Below are positions 19,909 to 26,945 of a DNA stretch of 64,000 bases, piece after piece (position 1 is the first letter of the stretch; the number at the start of each line of letters is the position of its first letter). The notes beneath the pieces are model-generated. The model searched no databases and was not told the origin of the DNA. It worked only from the letters and a program-made list of their open reading frames with translations. The position numbers and the translations under genes are program-made. Source of the stretch: Aquisphaera giovannonii. GTDB taxonomy: Bacteria; Planctomycetota; Planctomycetia; Isosphaerales; Isosphaeraceae. The stretch is taken from positions 6,262,001 to 6,326,000 of the forward strand of contig NZ_CP042997.1 in assembly GCF_008087625.1 (NCBI RefSeq), written 5' to 3'.

Positions 19909-20155
19909 GGCCCGTCGTCCAGCCGTCCGAAGCGTCCCATCCGGCCCCACGCCACCGGCCGGCGCCCCGCGCCTTTTGAGGCCCCTCGCGCCGTCGGGCA
20001 CGTCCGGAAGGACCGGCCCGCGAGGCCGGTCCGGCCCAGGCTGGATGTCCATCAAGTCCGTCGCGCCGCGGCGTCGGATCCGGCGAATCCGCCGCTCGCC
20101 CCGGACGAATCAAGGAGGAGGACACCGCACCGAATCACTTGCTCAAGGACGGGCC

Positions 20156-22126
20156 ATGGCGCTGCCGCGCATCCGGGTCGGGCTCGGGATGATGGTCCTG
20201 CTGGTCGCGAGCGGCTCGCCGTCAACGCCGGCCGGGTCCGTCAATGACGATCGCGACCGGGCCTTCCGGCTGTACGACGCCGGCCGCTTCGCGGAGGCGA
20301 TCCCGCTCCTGGATCGGGTGATCGAGGCGCACCACCGGGACGTCCAGGGCCGCATCAAGCGGGGCAACTGCTACCTCCGGCTCGACCGGCCGGAACGCGC
20401 CGTCCCGGACTTCGAGTTCGTGGCGCGGTTCAGCCCGTTCAACCCGAGTGCGCAGACCGACCTGGGCATCGCGCTCCTCATGATCGGGCGGCACCAGGAC
20501 GCGCAGGCCTGCTTCGAGCAGGCGATCCGCTACTGGTCCAACCCGCTGAACGGCGCGGGCGCGCTGAACCGCAGGAGTGCCCGGGAGATCCGGCAGGGCC
20601 GGGGCGCGTCGCATTGCGGGCTGGCCCAGGTCTACCACCGGACCGGCCGGAACGAGGAGGCCATCGCCGAATACAACCGCGCCCTCGCGATCTTCGCGGA
20701 GGATCCCAACACCTACATCGGCCGCGGCGACGCGCACGCGTCCCTCGGCGAGGAGGACGAGGCCTTCGCGGACTACGCGGAGGCCATCCGCATCGGCCCG
20801 GCCTACTCGCGGGCCTACGTCTCCAGGGCCACGCTCCTCGCGAGGCTCGGCCGGGCCGACGAGGCGCTCGCCGACTACGAGCGGGCCCTCGCGATCGACC
20901 CCAATGACGCCCTCGCCCTCGGGCTGCGCGGCGGCCTGCTGTCGCAACGCGGGCAGAACGACCGGGCGCTCGCGGACTTCGAGGCCGTCCTGGGGATGCG
21001 GCCCGAGGACGCGGGGGCGCACAAGGATCGCGGCGGGCTCCTGGTGCGGATGGGCCGCAACGAGGAGGCGATCGCGGACCTAGACCGGGCGATCTCGCTC
21101 AACCCCCGGAGCGCCGCCTCGTACCTGAACCGGGGCGCCGCGCACAGCAACCTCGGCCACTACGAGCAGGCGATCGCGGACCTGGAGAGGGCGATCGACC
21201 TGGATCCGAAGGACCCGAAGTCGCACACGAACATCGGCCTGGCGCTCTTCATGGTCGGCAGCTACGACCGGTCGATCGAGGAGCTGAGCGAGGCCGTCCG
21301 CCTGGCGCCCCGCAACGCGATCGTCCGCATGAATCGCGGCAACGTCTACGCGAAGCTCGGCTTCCGCGAGCAGGCGATCGCCGACTACGGCGAGTCGGAG
21401 CGGGCCGACCCGCGGCTGATGGCGAGCCTGGGCGGCCCGTCGCGGCTCCTGGAGACGATGGGCCGCCAGAGCCTGGCCATGCTGGACCAGAAGCGCGTGA
21501 CCCTGTCGAAGCCGGGCGCCGGCGAGGCGTCCGCGGCGCTGGAGCGGGGCCATGCCCTGCGGGCCCGCGGGGACTGGAAGGCGGCGATCGCCGAGTTCGA
21601 CCGGGCGATCGGGCTCGACCCGGGCCGGCCCGAGGCCTACGTGGCCCGGGGCTGGTCGCGGTTCTGCGCGGGGGAGCCGGACGCCGAGGCGGACGCGCAG
21701 GCGTACCTGAAGCTCCGCGGCTGGGACGACCGCTTCTCGCCCTACATGGCGCTCCTGGGCGTCCTCTCCGCCCGTCGAGCCGGGCACGAGGAGGAGGGCC
21801 GCCGGGCGCTCGACGAGGCCATCGCCGGGGTTCCCCCGGGCCTCTGGCCGCTGCCGCTGCTCCACTACCTCCGCCACGACATCACCGGCACGGCCGTCCT
21901 CGAGAAGGCGAAGGGGGAGACGCAGCAGGCCGAGGCCCATGCCGTCGTGGGCCTGGACCTGCTGCGCCGGGGCGACCGCAAGGGGGCGATCGAGCACCTC
22001 CGGTGGGTCCGCGACCACGGCCCCTCGAAGTCGGTCTTCTTCGACGTGGCCGGCGCGACGCTCCGGGACCTGGACACGCCCCTCGACCCGCTCTCCCGGG
22101 CCATCCGGGCCCGCCGGGCCAATTGA
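20156..22126 (+). CDS. Exported tetratricopeptide repeat protein
   Basis: A 656-aa protein. A signal-peptide-like start (MALPRIRVGLGMMVLLVASG) is followed by about ten TPR units with the usual W/L-G-Y-A-P pattern, for example NRALAIFAEDPNTYIGRGDAH, YERALAIDPNDALALGLRGG, DRAISLNPRSAASYLNRGAAH and ERAIDLDPKDPKSHTNIG. A linker near 470 is followed by two more units. The C-terminal 150 residues are TPR-like but irregular (QAEAHAVVGLDLLRRGDRKGAIEHL). Such repeats are protein-binding scaffolds; no partner is evident. The ATG at 20156 places the signal peptide at the N terminus. Its stop is 20 bp from the stop of the convergent kinase-macro gene. Confidence 0.85.
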   Translation: MALPRIRVGLGMMVLLVASGSPSTPAGSVNDDRDRAFRLYDAGRFAEAIPLLDRVIEAHHRDVQGRIKRGNCYLRLDRPERAVPDFEFVARFSPFNPSAQTDLGIALLMIGRHQDAQACFEQAIRYWSNPLNGAGALNRRSAREIRQGRGASHCGLAQVYHRTGRNEEAIAEYNRALAIFAEDPNTYIGRGDAHASLGEEDEAFADYAEAIRIGPAYSRAYVSRATLLARLGRADEALADYERALAIDPNDALALGLRGGLLSQRGQNDRALADFEAVLGMRPEDAGAHKDRGGLLVRMGRNEEAIADLDRAISLNPRSAASYLNRGAAHSNLGHYEQAIADLERAIDLDPKDPKSHTNIGLALFMVGSYDRSIEELSEAVRLAPRNAIVRMNRGNVYAKLGFREQAIADYGESERADPRLMASLGGPSRLLETMGRQSLAMLDQKRVTLSKPGAGEASAALERGHALRARGDWKAAIAEFDRAIGLDPGRPEAYVARGWSRFCAGEPDAEADAQAYLKLRGWDDRFSPYMALLGVLSARRAGHEEEGRRALDEAIAGVPPGLWPLPLLHYLRHDITGTAVLEKAKGETQQAEAHAVVGLDLLRRGDRKGAIEHLRWVRDHGPSKSVFFDVAGATLRDLDTPLDPLSRAIRARRAN

Positions 22127-22146: not shown

Positions 22147-23910
22147 TCAGCGGGCGGGGCGGCGCCCCCAGTCCGGGGCTTCCTCGGGGAAGATGACGAT
22201 GCGGGCCTCGCGGAGCGGGCCCAGGCCGCGGAGGAAGGTCCGGGCCAGGGACTGGAACATCGTGTCGAGGCAGATCTCCCGGGAGAACCCCATCGCGCCG
22301 GTGCCCAGCAGCGGGAAGGCGATCGTGCCGACCTGGAGGGAGTCGGCGTGGTAGAAGCAGCTCGCCATGATCTCGGCGATGAGGTCGCGGCTCGGCTCGA
22401 CGATGCCGTCCCCGGTGATCCCGACGGTCACCCCGTGGAAGACGTACCGCGCCGGGAGCCGACCGCCGGACGTGACCACCGCACGGCCGGGGCGGACCGG
22501 CCCGTAGCGCGCGAGCTCGTCCACCACCTGCCGGCCGCCGGCCTCGCCGATCGCGAGGGAGACGCCGAAGTTGTGCGTGAGCCGGTGGGTGTCCGAGCTG
22601 ACGACCGCGTCCACGTCCTGGCGCGTGATGTCCCCCCTCAGGATCACGACCCTGCGGCCGCCCGGGAAGGCGTGGGCCTCGCCCTCGGCGGGCAGGTCGG
22701 ACTCCGGGTCCAGGTACGCGTCGCGGCGGGCCCGGTACCGCTCGAGGTGGGCCAGGAGCTCGGGATCCTCGGTCATGTCCCAGGGCGAGAACGGCCCGGG
22801 CGCCGTCGTGAGCTGGCGGCGGAGCTCGGCGAACGAGGGGAAGCGATCGCCGGGCGCCTTGGCCAGGCACCGCTCGAGGACGGCGCCGATGCGCTCCGAG
22901 ATGTCCGGGTTCCGCGAGCGGGGAGAGGCGAGCGGCTCGGACTTGTGCTTGCAGAGGATCGAGAAGGCGGACGCCCCGTCGAACGGGGGCGAGCCGGTCA
23001 GGGCGTGATAGAAGGCGGCCCCGAAGCTGTAGATGTCGGCCCGCGTGTCCACGCCCCGGGGGTCCTCGGCCTGTTCCGGGGCCATGTACTGGGGCGTCCC
23101 CATGACCGTGTCGGCGGTGGTCACGTCGGGGAGGACGCCCTCGCCGCGGGCCAGCCCGAAGTCGGCGACGAGCGCGCGTCGCCGGTCGTCGATGAGGATG
23201 TTCTGCGGCTTCAGGTCGCGGTGGATGATCCCCCGCTCCGCGGCGGCGATCATCCCCTCGCAGACGTCCGCCATCCAGCGGACGGCCTGCTCCTCCGGGA
23301 TCCTCCCCCCGTTGGCCCGCATCACCGCCCGCAGGTCGCTGCCGTCCACGAGCTCCATGACGAGGGCGAACCGGCCGTCCGCGAGGCCCCGGAAGTCGTG
23401 CACGGCGACGACGTGCGGCGAGCGGATGGCCGCGACGAGCGTGGCCTCGCGGCGGAACCGGTCCGTGCTCCGGCCCGGTAGGATGACCTTGATGGCGGCG
23501 GGCCTGCCGAGCGTCCGATGTCGCGCCCGGTAGACGACGCCCATCGCCCCCTCGCCGAGGACGTCTAGCACCTCATACTCCGGCAGCTCCGCGAACGAGA
23601 CCGAGGCCGCCGAGGGCGGTGGCGGCGCGGCCTCGACGGTGTTCAGCCGGTCGATCGTCGCGGAGATCGTTGAGGCGTACCCGGGGAGCCGGGACGCGTA
23701 ATCCTCAACGCGAGGGCAGTCGCCCGCGGCCCTGCGGTGGCGGATCTCGATCTCCAGCAGCGCAAGGAGCAGCTCGTCACGCCCGGGGCCCGGGGGGACC
23801 TGCGAGAGGAAGAGCTCCAGCCGCGGGGGCTCCCCCTCGCGCCAGGTCGTCGCGAACAGGTCCACCAGGGCGTCGATCCGGCTGCGATCGACGGGCGTCG
23901 GCGTCTCCAT
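22147..23910 (-). CDS. Ser/Thr protein kinase fused to a C-terminal macro domain
   Basis: A 587-aa protein without a clear membrane segment. Residues 1-105 are a helical N-terminal region. The kinase domain (about 110-370) has LGEGAMG, Lys in AAIKVI, HRDLKPQN, DFG in VADFGLA and GTPQYMAPEQ, so it looks active. After a linker rich in charged residues, about 415-585 form a macro domain: RVVILRGDITRQDVDAVV, GVSLAIGEAGG, GRAVVTSGGRLPARYVFHGV, and the glycine loop FPLLGTGAMGFSREI. The usual NAAN asparagine motif reads SSDTH, so ADP-ribose hydrolysis may be lost while binding is kept (inference). The ATG at 23910 is preferred over a TTG 30 codons upstream. Kinase-macro fusion joins phosphorylation to ADP-ribose recognition in one chain. 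Confidence 0.85.
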   Translation of the reverse strand: METPTPVDRSRIDALVDLFATTWREGEPPRLELFLSQVPPGPGRDELLLALLEIEIRHRRAAGDCPRVEDYASRLPGYASTISATIDRLNTVEAAPPPPSAASVSFAELPEYEVLDVLGEGAMGVVYRARHRTLGRPAAIKVILPGRSTDRFRREATLVAAIRSPHVVAVHDFRGLADGRFALVMELVDGSDLRAVMRANGGRIPEEQAVRWMADVCEGMIAAAERGIIHRDLKPQNILIDDRRRALVADFGLARGEGVLPDVTTADTVMGTPQYMAPEQAEDPRGVDTRADIYSFGAAFYHALTGSPPFDGASAFSILCKHKSEPLASPRSRNPDISERIGAVLERCLAKAPGDRFPSFAELRRQLTTAPGPFSPWDMTEDPELLAHLERYRARRDAYLDPESDLPAEGEAHAFPGGRRVVILRGDITRQDVDAVVSSDTHRLTHNFGVSLAIGEAGGRQVVDELARYGPVRPGRAVVTSGGRLPARYVFHGVTVGITGDGIVEPSRDLIAEIMASCFYHADSLQVGTIAFPLLGTGAMGFSREICLDTMFQSLARTFLRGLGPLREARIVIFPEEAPDWGRRPAR

Positions 23911-24076
23911 GGCCCCCCCCGCAACGGTTGTCCCCGCGGCCCCGCCCCCGTGCTCCTGCTCCCGTGCGACTATTCGATCACACGGGCGGGGAGACGCCAA
24001 GGGCGTGGGCCGGCGGCGGGCCGGGCGGGCCCGCCTCAGGGGCGGGCCGTCGCGTCGGGGGGCGCCTCGCGAAGGA

Positions 24077-26752
24077 TCAGGCCCCCATCACGCTCGTGAT
24101 CTTCTCGAGCGTCGCCTCCGAGGGCTCCTTCGTGCCCTTGCACTTGGGGTAGCCCTTGCAGCCGAGGAAGTAGCCGCGGCGGCCCCGGCGGACGGTCATG
24201 GCGCCGCCGCAGTCGTCGCAGGTCTCGTCCACCTCGATCGTCTTCAGGTCGGGCCCGGCGGCCGCGGCCGGCGCGGGGGCCATGGCGGCGACCTGCTCCA
24301 TCTTGTCCTCCGGGATCGGCGCCGTGCCGCGGCACTTGGGGTAGCCGGTGCAGCCGAGGAACGGCCCGCGGCGGCCCTGCCGGACCTTCATCGGCTTGCC
24401 GCACTTCTCGCAGTTGATGCCCAGGTCCACCACCTGCACGGGCTTGCCCTCGGCGTCCACGTCCTGGACGTTGCGGCACTTGGGATACCCGGTGCAGCCG
24501 AGGAACGGCCCGCGGCGGCCCTGTCGCAGGGCCATCGGCTTGCCGCACTTCTCGCACTTGTACTCGGTCTCCTGCCGCGACGGGACGGGGTTGCCGTTCT
24601 CGTCGATGTTGAACGACTCCTTGCACTCCGGGTAGCCGGAGCAGGAGAGGAACTTCTCGCCCCGCTTGTTCTCGCGGATGAGCAGCGGCTTGTGGCACTT
24701 CGGGCAGGCGTGACCGCTCTCGACGGCCTCGGCCCGCGGCTGCCCGCCGAGCGGCCGCGTGGCCTTGCACTCGGGGTACTTGGAGCAGCCCAGGAACTGG
24801 CCGGTGCGGCCGAACTTCAGCACCATCGGCGCGCCGCAGACGTGGCAGACCTCGTCGGTCGGGATCGACACCCGCTCCATCTGGGTCTGGGCGGTCTTCA
24901 GCGCGTCCTGGAACGGGTAGTAGAACTCGTCGAGGACCTTGACCATGTCCTCCTTGGCCGTGGCGATGTCGTCGAGCTCGTCCTCCATGTGGGCCGTGAA
25001 CTTCAGGTCCAGGATCTTGGGGAAGTGCTTGACCAGGAGGTCGGTCACCACCATCCCCAGGTCGGTCGCGAAGAACCGCCGCTCCTTCTGCTCCACGTAC
25101 ATCCGGTCCTGGATCGTCTGGATGATCGGGGCGTAGGTGCTCGGGCGGCCGATGTTCTCCTTCTCCAGCGCCTTGATGAGCGTCGCCTCGCTGTACCGCG
25201 GAGGCGGCTGGGTGAAGTGCTGGGTGGGGGCCAGCTCGTGGAGGTCCAGCTCCTGGCCCGCCTTCAGCGGGGGCAGCAGCGCATCCTCCAGCTTGCCGCC
25301 GGGGGGCCAGACCCGCTTGTGGCCGTCGAACTTGAGCACCTTGCCCTGGGTCTTGAACAGGCCGGGGCCGGCCGCGATGGCGACGTCGGTCACCGTGAAG
25401 ACGGCCGGGGCCATCTGGCTGGCGACGAACCGCCAGTAGATGAGCTGATAGAGGCGGAACTGGTCGTGGGAGAGCTTACCCTTGATCTTGTCGGGCGCCA
25501 GCTTCAGGTCGGTCGGCCGGATGGCCTCGTGGGCCTCCTGGGCGTTCTTGCCGGCGGCGTAGCGGATCGGCTTGGCGGGCAGGTACTTGTCGCCGAAGTC
25601 GTCGTGGATCAGGCCGCGGACCGCCTCCATGGCCTCCTGGGAGACGCTCAGGCTGTCGGTACGCATGTAGGTGATCAGGCCGACCGGGCCGGAGCCGTCG
25701 ACGTCGATGCCCTCGTACAGCTCCTGGGCGATCTTCATCGTCTTCTTGCCGGAGTAGCGGAGGCGGATGGCCGCCTGCTGCTGGAGGGTGCTGGTCTTGA
25801 ACGGCGGGTCGGCGCGGTCCTGCTTGTCGGCCTCGTCCACCCTGGACACGAGGAACCGCTCGGAGGCGAGGACGTCGCGGACCTTGTGGGCGTCGGCCTC
25901 GTTGTTGGCCGCGAACTTGGCCCCCTCGTACTCGACGAGCCCGGCCTCGAAGCGGTCGGCCTCGGCCGTCGCCCCGGCGGGGCTGACCGTGGCGGTGATC
26001 TTCCAGTACTCCTCGCTGACGAAGGCCCGGATCTCCTTCTCGCGGTCGGCGATCAGGCGGACGGCCACGGACTGGACGCGGCCGGCGCTCAGGTTGCGGG
26101 CCACCTTGCTCCAGAGCAGCGGGCTGAGCTGGTAGCCGACGAACCGGTCCAGGAACCGGCGGGCCTGCTGGGCGTTCACCATGTCGACGTTGATCGGCCC
26201 GACGTGGGTGAAGGCGTCGCGGACGGCGCGCTCGGTGATCTCGTGGAAGGTCACGCGGCGGACCCGGTCGTCGGGGAGCTCGAGCGCCTGCTGGAGGTGC
26301 CAGGCGATGGCCTCGCCCTCGCGGTCGGGGTCGGTCGCGAGGTAGACCACGCCGGCCCGGGCCGCCTCGCGCTTCAGGTCGGTGACGGTCTCCTTCTTGG
26401 CGGGCACCACCTCGTAGGACGGCGCGTAGCCGTCGGCCACGTCCAGGCCGAGCTTCCGCTTGGGGAGGTCGCGGACGTGCCCCATGCTCGCCTTGACGAT
26501 ATACTTCGATCCGAGGAACTTGTTGATCGACTTGGCCTTCTTGGGGCTCTCCACGATCACCAGCGCCCGGCCGCCGCCCGACGCCGGCGCGGCGTCCTCG
26601 GGGGCGGCCGCCTTGCCGCGGGCCGCCTTCGCCTTCGTCGCCTTCGGGGCCGCGGCCTTCGTCGCCGCCGCCTTGCTCGCACGCTTCGGGGAGGCGGACT
26701 TGGGGGTGCCGCCGTCGTCGCCCGGCGAGGCTCCTGGGGACTTTCTAGCCAC
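24077..26752 (-). CDS. topA: DNA topoisomerase I (type IA)
   Basis: An 891-aa enzyme that relaxes negatively supercoiled DNA. A Lys/Ala-rich tail (about residues 1-55, KAAATKAAAPKATKAKAARG) precedes the TOPRIM domain (ALVIVESPKKAKSINKFLG, DPDREGEAIAWHL). The active-site tyrosine is in LITYMRTDSLSVS. Five CxxC...CxxYPxC zinc ribbons follow (starting CHVCGAP, CPKCHKP, CEKCGKP, CEKCGKP, CDDCGGA), more than the usual three. The GTG at 26752 is chosen: it has AGGAAG five bp upstream, and the only upstream ATG (26920) overlaps the -10 of a good promoter. It diverges from the PpiD-like gene. Confidence 0.92.
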   Translation of the reverse strand: MARKSPGASPGDDGGTPKSASPKRASKAAATKAAAPKATKAKAARGKAAAPEDAAPASGGGRALVIVESPKKAKSINKFLGSKYIVKASMGHVRDLPKRKLGLDVADGYAPSYEVVPAKKETVTDLKREAARAGVVYLATDPDREGEAIAWHLQQALELPDDRVRRVTFHEITERAVRDAFTHVGPINVDMVNAQQARRFLDRFVGYQLSPLLWSKVARNLSAGRVQSVAVRLIADREKEIRAFVSEEYWKITATVSPAGATAEADRFEAGLVEYEGAKFAANNEADAHKVRDVLASERFLVSRVDEADKQDRADPPFKTSTLQQQAAIRLRYSGKKTMKIAQELYEGIDVDGSGPVGLITYMRTDSLSVSQEAMEAVRGLIHDDFGDKYLPAKPIRYAAGKNAQEAHEAIRPTDLKLAPDKIKGKLSHDQFRLYQLIYWRFVASQMAPAVFTVTDVAIAAGPGLFKTQGKVLKFDGHKRVWPPGGKLEDALLPPLKAGQELDLHELAPTQHFTQPPPRYSEATLIKALEKENIGRPSTYAPIIQTIQDRMYVEQKERRFFATDLGMVVTDLLVKHFPKILDLKFTAHMEDELDDIATAKEDMVKVLDEFYYPFQDALKTAQTQMERVSIPTDEVCHVCGAPMVLKFGRTGQFLGCSKYPECKATRPLGGQPRAEAVESGHACPKCHKPLLIRENKRGEKFLSCSGYPECKESFNIDENGNPVPSRQETEYKCEKCGKPMALRQGRRGPFLGCTGYPKCRNVQDVDAEGKPVQVVDLGINCEKCGKPMKVRQGRRGPFLGCTGYPKCRGTAPIPEDKMEQVAAMAPAPAAAAGPDLKTIEVDETCDDCGGAMTVRRGRRGYFLGCKGYPKCKGTKEPSEATLEKITSVMGA

Positions 26753-26916
26753 GTTGTCTTCCTGCCTATCCTCTTCGCTCTCCCACGCTTGGGTCGATCC
26801 GTCGGGACCTTCTCGAACGCGGCGCAGCGGGTTGTTTGAGGTTGCCCTGGGGGAGATTCCTGATACGATGAAGGTTGGTCGGTCGTCGCCTGCACCCCGA
26901 ATCCAACCCCTTAGCG

Positions 26917-26945
26917 ACATAAGCCAGGGTATCGGGGCCTGTCAA
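26917..26945 (-). promoter_or_regulatory. Candidate sigma-70 promoter of topA
   Basis: On the minus strand TTGACA (26945-26940), 17-bp spacer, TTATGT (26922-26917). The -35 is a perfect consensus match. The predicted start near 26910 leaves an mRNA leader of about 158 nt to the GTG start, and lies downstream of the far ATG, which argues against that ATG as the start. Confidence 0.5.

Follow-up and report, generated by a model that had tools for sequence, protein, structure and literature searches.

A Hanks-type Ser/Thr kinase fused to a macro domain in Aquisphaera giovannonii, a candidate sensor of an ADP-ribose-type ligand

The kinase-macro gene and its surroundings

The window we analyzed is a 64,000-nucleotide stretch of the Aquisphaera giovannonii genome (assembly GCF_008087625.1, contig NZ_CP042997.1, positions 6,262,001 to 6,326,000), and it contains, at 22147..23910 on the minus strand, a gene that joins a protein kinase to a macro domain. 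The two domains lie in a single uninterrupted frame of 587 amino acids (P0001), which opens with an ATG at 23910 and has an alternative TTG start at 24000. Both domains score far above their curated Pfam cut-offs, bearing out an earlier note, made from the letters of the window alone, which had placed kinase and macro domain in one frame. From its N terminus, the protein consists of a region predicted to form helices (residues 1-110; 23581..23910) that is not conserved in every orthologue of our alignment (A4), a Hanks-type Ser/Thr kinase domain (residues 112-357; 22840..23577), a linker (residues 371-415; 22666..22800), and the macro domain (residues 416-575; 22186..22665), all encoded on the minus strand. 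The linker carries a predicted helix at residues 383-400 and a conserved motif, SPW..ED..L..HL.RY, that is common to the Planctomycetota and Polyangia rows of the A4 alignment and in part to Sorangium. No membrane helix was found across the whole protein (the top 19-residue hydropathy was 1.17, which is not membrane-like), and P0001 is predicted to be a soluble protein. An AlphaFold model of the whole protein, built from an alignment of 11 sequences, reached a pLDDT of 79 and a pTM of 0.71. A scan of the gene for promoters and terminators returned nothing.

The DNA topoisomerase I gene (topA; 24077..26920, minus strand) lies 166 bp upstream on the same strand, and a TPR protein gene (19976..22126, plus strand) is convergent with the kinase-macro gene. 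Each of these is a neighbor within the genus only; beyond the genus we found no conserved neighborhood, and other kinase-macro loci have unrelated neighbors. At one such locus (L040:9145-14172), the gene directly after the kinase-macro gene combines a kinase, DUF4062, nSTAND1, and an FGE-sulfatase domain in one 1675-amino-acid frame. No NAD-consuming partner gene adjoins the kinase-macro gene, and no TIR domain in the A. giovannonii genome scored above the Pfam cut-off, with one TIR_2 match below it. The genome does hold candidate sources of a ligand, namely two sirtuin-like genes and a DarT gene paired with a DarG-like macro gene, none of them linked to the kinase-macro gene. In that pair (C1:242131-243162; L001, L230), the DarT gene is followed at once by the DarG-like macro gene.

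The kinase domain and the macro domain

The kinase half matches the Pfam Pkinase family (PF00069) over residues 112-357, with an E value of 1.6e-44 and 152.8 bits against a cut-off of 31.7. Its catalytic motifs are located where the earlier note had claimed them, with K141 (in AIK), HRD at 230-232 (as HRDLKPQN), and DFG at 250-252, and these motifs are complete in every orthologue row of the A4 alignment. Judging from the profile match and the catalytic residues, the kinase appears intact. The nearest solved fold to the modeled domain is that of Mycobacterium tuberculosis PknB (38% identity), and PknB-type kinase models of NCBIfam match the N-terminal part of the protein, all below their equivalog cut-offs. 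PknB itself carries a membrane helix and a PASTA sensor, whereas the accessory domain of P0001 is a macro domain and a membrane helix is missing.

The earlier note had also called the C-terminal part a macro domain, and profile, motifs, and model agree with that call. Pfam Macro (PF01661) matches residues 442-550 (E 1.4e-17, 64.1 bits against a cut-off of 22), GDIT is found at 426, and GTGAMGF, the phosphate-binding loop by alignment and motif check, occupies residues 536-542 (22285..22305, minus strand). The C-terminal 175 residues that had been singled out for a profile search proved the correct region, with a folded unit of approximately residues 408-578. NCBIfam models for ADP-ribose binding and OAADPr deacetylase also match here, all below their equivalog cut-offs. 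A profile built from stand-alone macro proteins only recovered P0001 at an E value of 4.6e-35, while 500 shuffled versions of the C-terminal part scored no better than 0.11. Modeled alone, the macro part attained a pLDDT of 89.7 and a pTM of 0.86, and its best structural match was the ADP-ribose-bound macro domain of Capsaspora macroH2A (7ny7; Z 24.1 over 166 residues, 2.8 A). On the strength of the model, we regard the predicted macro fold as certain.

The fold comparison is less informative about the kind of macro domain that is present. Within approximately 1.5 Z of the best match come YmdB, human macroH2A1.1, TTHA0132, and the Oceanobacillus MacroD (OiMacroD), followed by PARP14 macro 1, and many macro domains score above a Z of 20. 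In a profile search of the PDB, the best sequence match was PARP14 macro 1-2 (E 2e-37). The nearest solved structures are thus macroH2A by fold and PARP14 by sequence, although hydrolases lie within 1-2 Z and the Z score does not separate macro classes. Readers of the macroH2A, PARP14, and PARP9 type differ from P0001 in that they share only approximately 25% identity with its macro domain and are not fused to a kinase.

MacroD-type hydrolases such as MACROD1 and YmdB share with P0001 the fold and the general layout of the ADP-ribose cleft, and their activity has been tied to the NAAN motif, a glycine-rich loop, and an Asp/His pair (PMC11490716). Where MACROD1 has NAANSSLLGGGGVDGCIH, P0001 aligns with SSDTHRLTHNFGVSLAIG, so that none of NAAN, the glycine run (GGGG), and the Asp/His pair is retained. 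By alignment and motif check, SSDT (residues 438-441; 22588..22599, minus strand) stands at the NAAN position, and HNFGVSLAIG takes the place of GGGxDx3H; the MacroD-type motif is therefore missing. Across the 11 rows of the A4 alignment, the NAAN positions read S, S/A, D/E, and D/T, and the MacroD Asp and His positions read S/A and G/S/R/L/N. The earlier note had read the change from NAAN to SSDTH as the mark of a reader instead of an eraser; the motif loss is real and conserved, while the functional half of that statement holds as a preference only. Because NAAN has become S-[SA]-[DE]-[DT] and the Asp/His pair is lost, these residues favor a reader over an eraser, and macroH2A-like domains are known to bind ADP-ribose without hydrolyzing it (PMC11204291).

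The same residues say less about what might be bound. In the phosphate loop, PLLGTGAMGF in P0001, the outer glycines and the Phe are kept among the A4 rows and the middle varies, with GTG reading GAG or GSG in the Sorangium rows. The adenine-contacting Asp is present in P0001 and is N or S in 6 of the 11 rows. Since both of these positions shift, the ligand may differ among orthologues or may not be ADP-ribose, and the residue pattern appears to constrain the ligand weakly, leaving room for one other than ADP-ribose. Loop 1 of P0001 includes three unusual residues (T441, N447, and F448), and C518, Y520, H521, and C547 are invariant among the aligned fusions. The SSDD..L.M..GVS form of the loop, together with D at the adenine position, is retained in three further loci (L095, L096, and L042).

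Conservation of the fusion and related macro domains

Within the class, 10 of 348 genomes gave matches (11 genes, whose macro parts are 39-79% identical to that of P0001), and all 10 homologous loci that were retrieved encode kinase and macro domain in one frame. A scan of named genomes located the fusion in Aquisphaera insulae, in two Polyangia genomes, and in several strains of Sorangium cellulosum, with the domains arranged alike and joined by a similar linker. By their macro halves, 13 fusions from two phyla fall into one clade (100/96), which persists when the motif columns are removed (100/100). The kinase halves likewise form one clade (100/97) against 29 other kinases of the A. giovannonii genome, in a tree that used the best 30 of that genome's own kinases and in which the L215 row, probably another kinase of that locus, was disregarded. 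The clade of each half had 100% bootstrap. Because each half forms a single clade, the tree topologies argue for a single ancient fusion: kinase and macro domain were probably joined once, long ago, and then co-inherited over two phyla. Relative to the A. insulae orthologue, the kinase has a dN/dS of approximately 0.26 and the macro domain one of 0.28, indicating similar purifying selection on the two halves. The genome encodes at least 105 kinases, and one of them has the kinase and macro pair. Two scans of viral contigs returned no relative of the kinase-macro protein, and plasmid records gave generic kinase matches only and no kinase-macro copy.

A second, divergent kinase-macro clade occurs in Myxococcota, with 12 loci (L208, L209, L211, L212, L214-L218, L220, L222, and L116) whose loop reads SSAN/NSAN..M.MR.GVG.AL; in two of its members, L209 and L216, the kinase has HCD in place of HRD. 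Both kinds occur together in the Sorangium genome of L099, and a further divergent kinase-macro protein (L084) comes from another class of Planctomycetota. A single origin of the two clades is unsupported by the macro tree but is not rejected by it either (AU p 0.25, or 0.03 with L084 added).

The loop type also recurs with other partners. Macro domains fused to TIR (L102) and to DUF4062 (L103, L104, L105, and L182) share the loop VSSDD..L.MGGGVS.A[IL], and the kinase-, TIR-, and DUF4062-linked macro domains together form a clade (98/92). This SSDD clade is not recovered once the motif columns are left out, though it is not rejected either (p 0.29), and it thus leans partly on the motif. In L102 (1180-2613), the TIR domain matches the Thoeris ThsB1 model with an E value of 7e-44, and from its domain content this TIR-SSDD macro protein is a candidate for a sensor, or for self-limiting control, within one protein. 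The DUF4062 fusions come from Chloroflexota and Elusimicrobia and were found by profile (L103-L105) and by similarity (L182). A sister variant of the loop, NSEN/SSEN..SVS.AI, is fused to CHAT in other Planctomycetota families (L079-L082, L086, and L087). One locus encodes a kinase-macro-SpoIIE triple fusion (L042:7406-9736, minus strand; the same as L093:3927-6257), in which the kinase and a PP2C-type phosphatase flank the SSDD macro domain and which adjoins a caspase-WD40 gene. Stand-alone NAAN macro proteins, considered as members of the same group, were set aside; they are abundant in these genomes yet separate in the tree.

What the macro domain might do for the kinase

One macro type, probably non-hydrolytic, is reused with several unrelated outputs and therefore resembles a ligand sensor. 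Our best reading takes the macro domain as an exchangeable sensor of an ADP-ribose-type ligand that here steers a kinase. We lean, by a modest degree of confidence, toward P0001 being a Hanks-type sensor-kinase whose macro domain binds such a ligand and whose kinase is gated or targeted by that binding. The macro domain, its hydrolase residues lost, would bind an NAD-derived nucleotide in free form or else protein-linked ADP-ribose, and binding would turn the kinase on or off or carry it to its substrate; a change in NAD or ADP-ribose signaling would in this way become Ser/Thr phosphorylation. In the targeting version, the macro domain would tether the kinase to ADP-ribosylated proteins.

We infer ligand binding, ligand identity, and the control or targeting of the kinase by analogy, and the closest analogy is the macro-type Thoeris effector ThsA. 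The membrane-bound ThsA binds ADPR and imidazole adenine dinucleotide through its macro domain and oligomerizes upon binding, and histidine adenine dinucleotide has been reported as the signal of a related system (PMC11204291). In ThsA the macro domain thus acts as receptor for an NAD-derived nucleotide and switches the effector part to which it is fused (PMC11204291), the role we propose for P0001, where ligand on the macro domain could dimerize, release, or position the kinase. The two differ in that ThsA has transmembrane helices, a TIR-domain ThsB alongside, and no kinase, whereas P0001 has no N-terminal transmembrane helices and its adjoining genes encode topA and a TPR protein, not a TIR protein. 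ThsA did not appear among the PDB profile matches listed for P0001, though the two may be distantly related. The kinase-macro fusion is a real, conserved architecture among macro-domain sensor-effector fusions such as ThsA.

Four other explanations deserve consideration. That the fusion arose by chance or through faulty assembly has next to no probability. We found nothing in favor of this idea apart from the rarity of the domain pair, which a single kinase among the at least 105 of the genome carries, and sequence comparison has already refuted it: domain order, linker motif, and frame are shared by independent genomes of two phyla, and both halves are under purifying selection. Orthologues and selection also rule out a chance kinase and macro frame arising from high-GC DNA. 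The macro domain could instead be a protein-protein or dimerization module without a nucleotide ligand, which dimerizes the kinase or recruits its substrates. The varying adenine Asp and the unusual residues T441, N447, and F448 fit this idea, and the invariant C518, Y520, H521, and C547 could make an interface. However, the outer phosphate loop and G449-V450 are kept in two phyla, L095, L096, and L042 retain both SSDD..L.M..GVS and the adenine D, and the recurrence of the loop type with several unrelated effectors is more easily explained by a common ligand than by a common partner; we consider such a module unlikely, if worth keeping in mind.

That the macro domain still works as an ADP-ribose-removing enzyme through a non-MacroD mechanism, so that kinase and hydrolase share a pathway, strikes us as improbable, and more so than a dimerization module. 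Certain MacroD-type enzymes without the catalytic Asp remain active and ALC1-like hydrolases rely on other residues (PMC7050489), but in P0001 all three features tied to MacroD activity are replaced, and no activity has been reported for GDAP2-like macro domains in which features of this kind are lost (PMC11490716). The kinase might also be the output of an infection signal, for example a TIR-made nucleotide, in a defense system. Such a role would be one particular form of the sensor idea and overlaps our best explanation, and we rate it only slightly below the dimerization module and likewise as unlikely. The fusion of an SSDD macro domain to a ThsB1-like TIR in L102 points in that direction, as do the kinase-DUF4062-nSTAND1-FGE gene next to L040, the caspase-WD40 gene next to L042, and the use of CHAT, which is caspase-like, as another fusion partner. 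Against it, most loci have unrelated neighbors, and viral contigs and plasmid records yielded no phage or plasmid copy. PADLOC matches P0001 to PD-T4-6, mad6, and other generic kinases over the kinase part only, and we rejected assignment as a defense gene on that basis.

If the macro domain of our favored sensor-kinase does gate the kinase, a single protein would link ADP-ribosylation or NAD signaling to Ser/Thr phosphorylation. The bacterial groups concerned have many kinases, most of them with no known input, and the macro domain points to a concrete set of ligands, making the ligand hypothesis directly testable. We found no description of a bacterial kinase-macro fusion in the open-access papers searched, and subscription papers may hold an earlier mention. 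A published survey of Ser/Thr kinases in planctomycetes counts 105 accessory domains, and its main text makes no mention of a macro domain (PMC11032199). Domain databases would display the architecture automatically, which makes a prior mention possible there as well.

More tentatively, and with rather more doubt than belief, we suggest that the non-hydrolytic SSDD macro clade, so far undescribed and set apart by its loop (SSDD..L.M..GVS.AI versus NAAN..GGGGVDGAIH), may be a general bacterial sensor of NAD-derived signals. Its outputs would include Ser/Thr kinase, SpoIIE phosphatase, TIR, DUF4062, and, as a sister variant, CHAT protease, with P0001 as the kinase branch that connects ADP-ribose signaling to phosphorylation. 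If the kinase is indeed gated by its macro domain, finding this loop type again beside TIR, DUF4062, and CHAT would also offer a way into several uncharacterized fusion proteins together. Two further proteins (L219:1798-4464 and L223:1-1848, minus strand) begin with an SSDD macro domain, and their other 450-650 residues match no Pfam family. At L117 (NAAK) and L119 (NAAN), the macro domain is followed in frame by a putative ADP-ribosylglycohydrolase, judged by eye from a GDTDTTAA motif.
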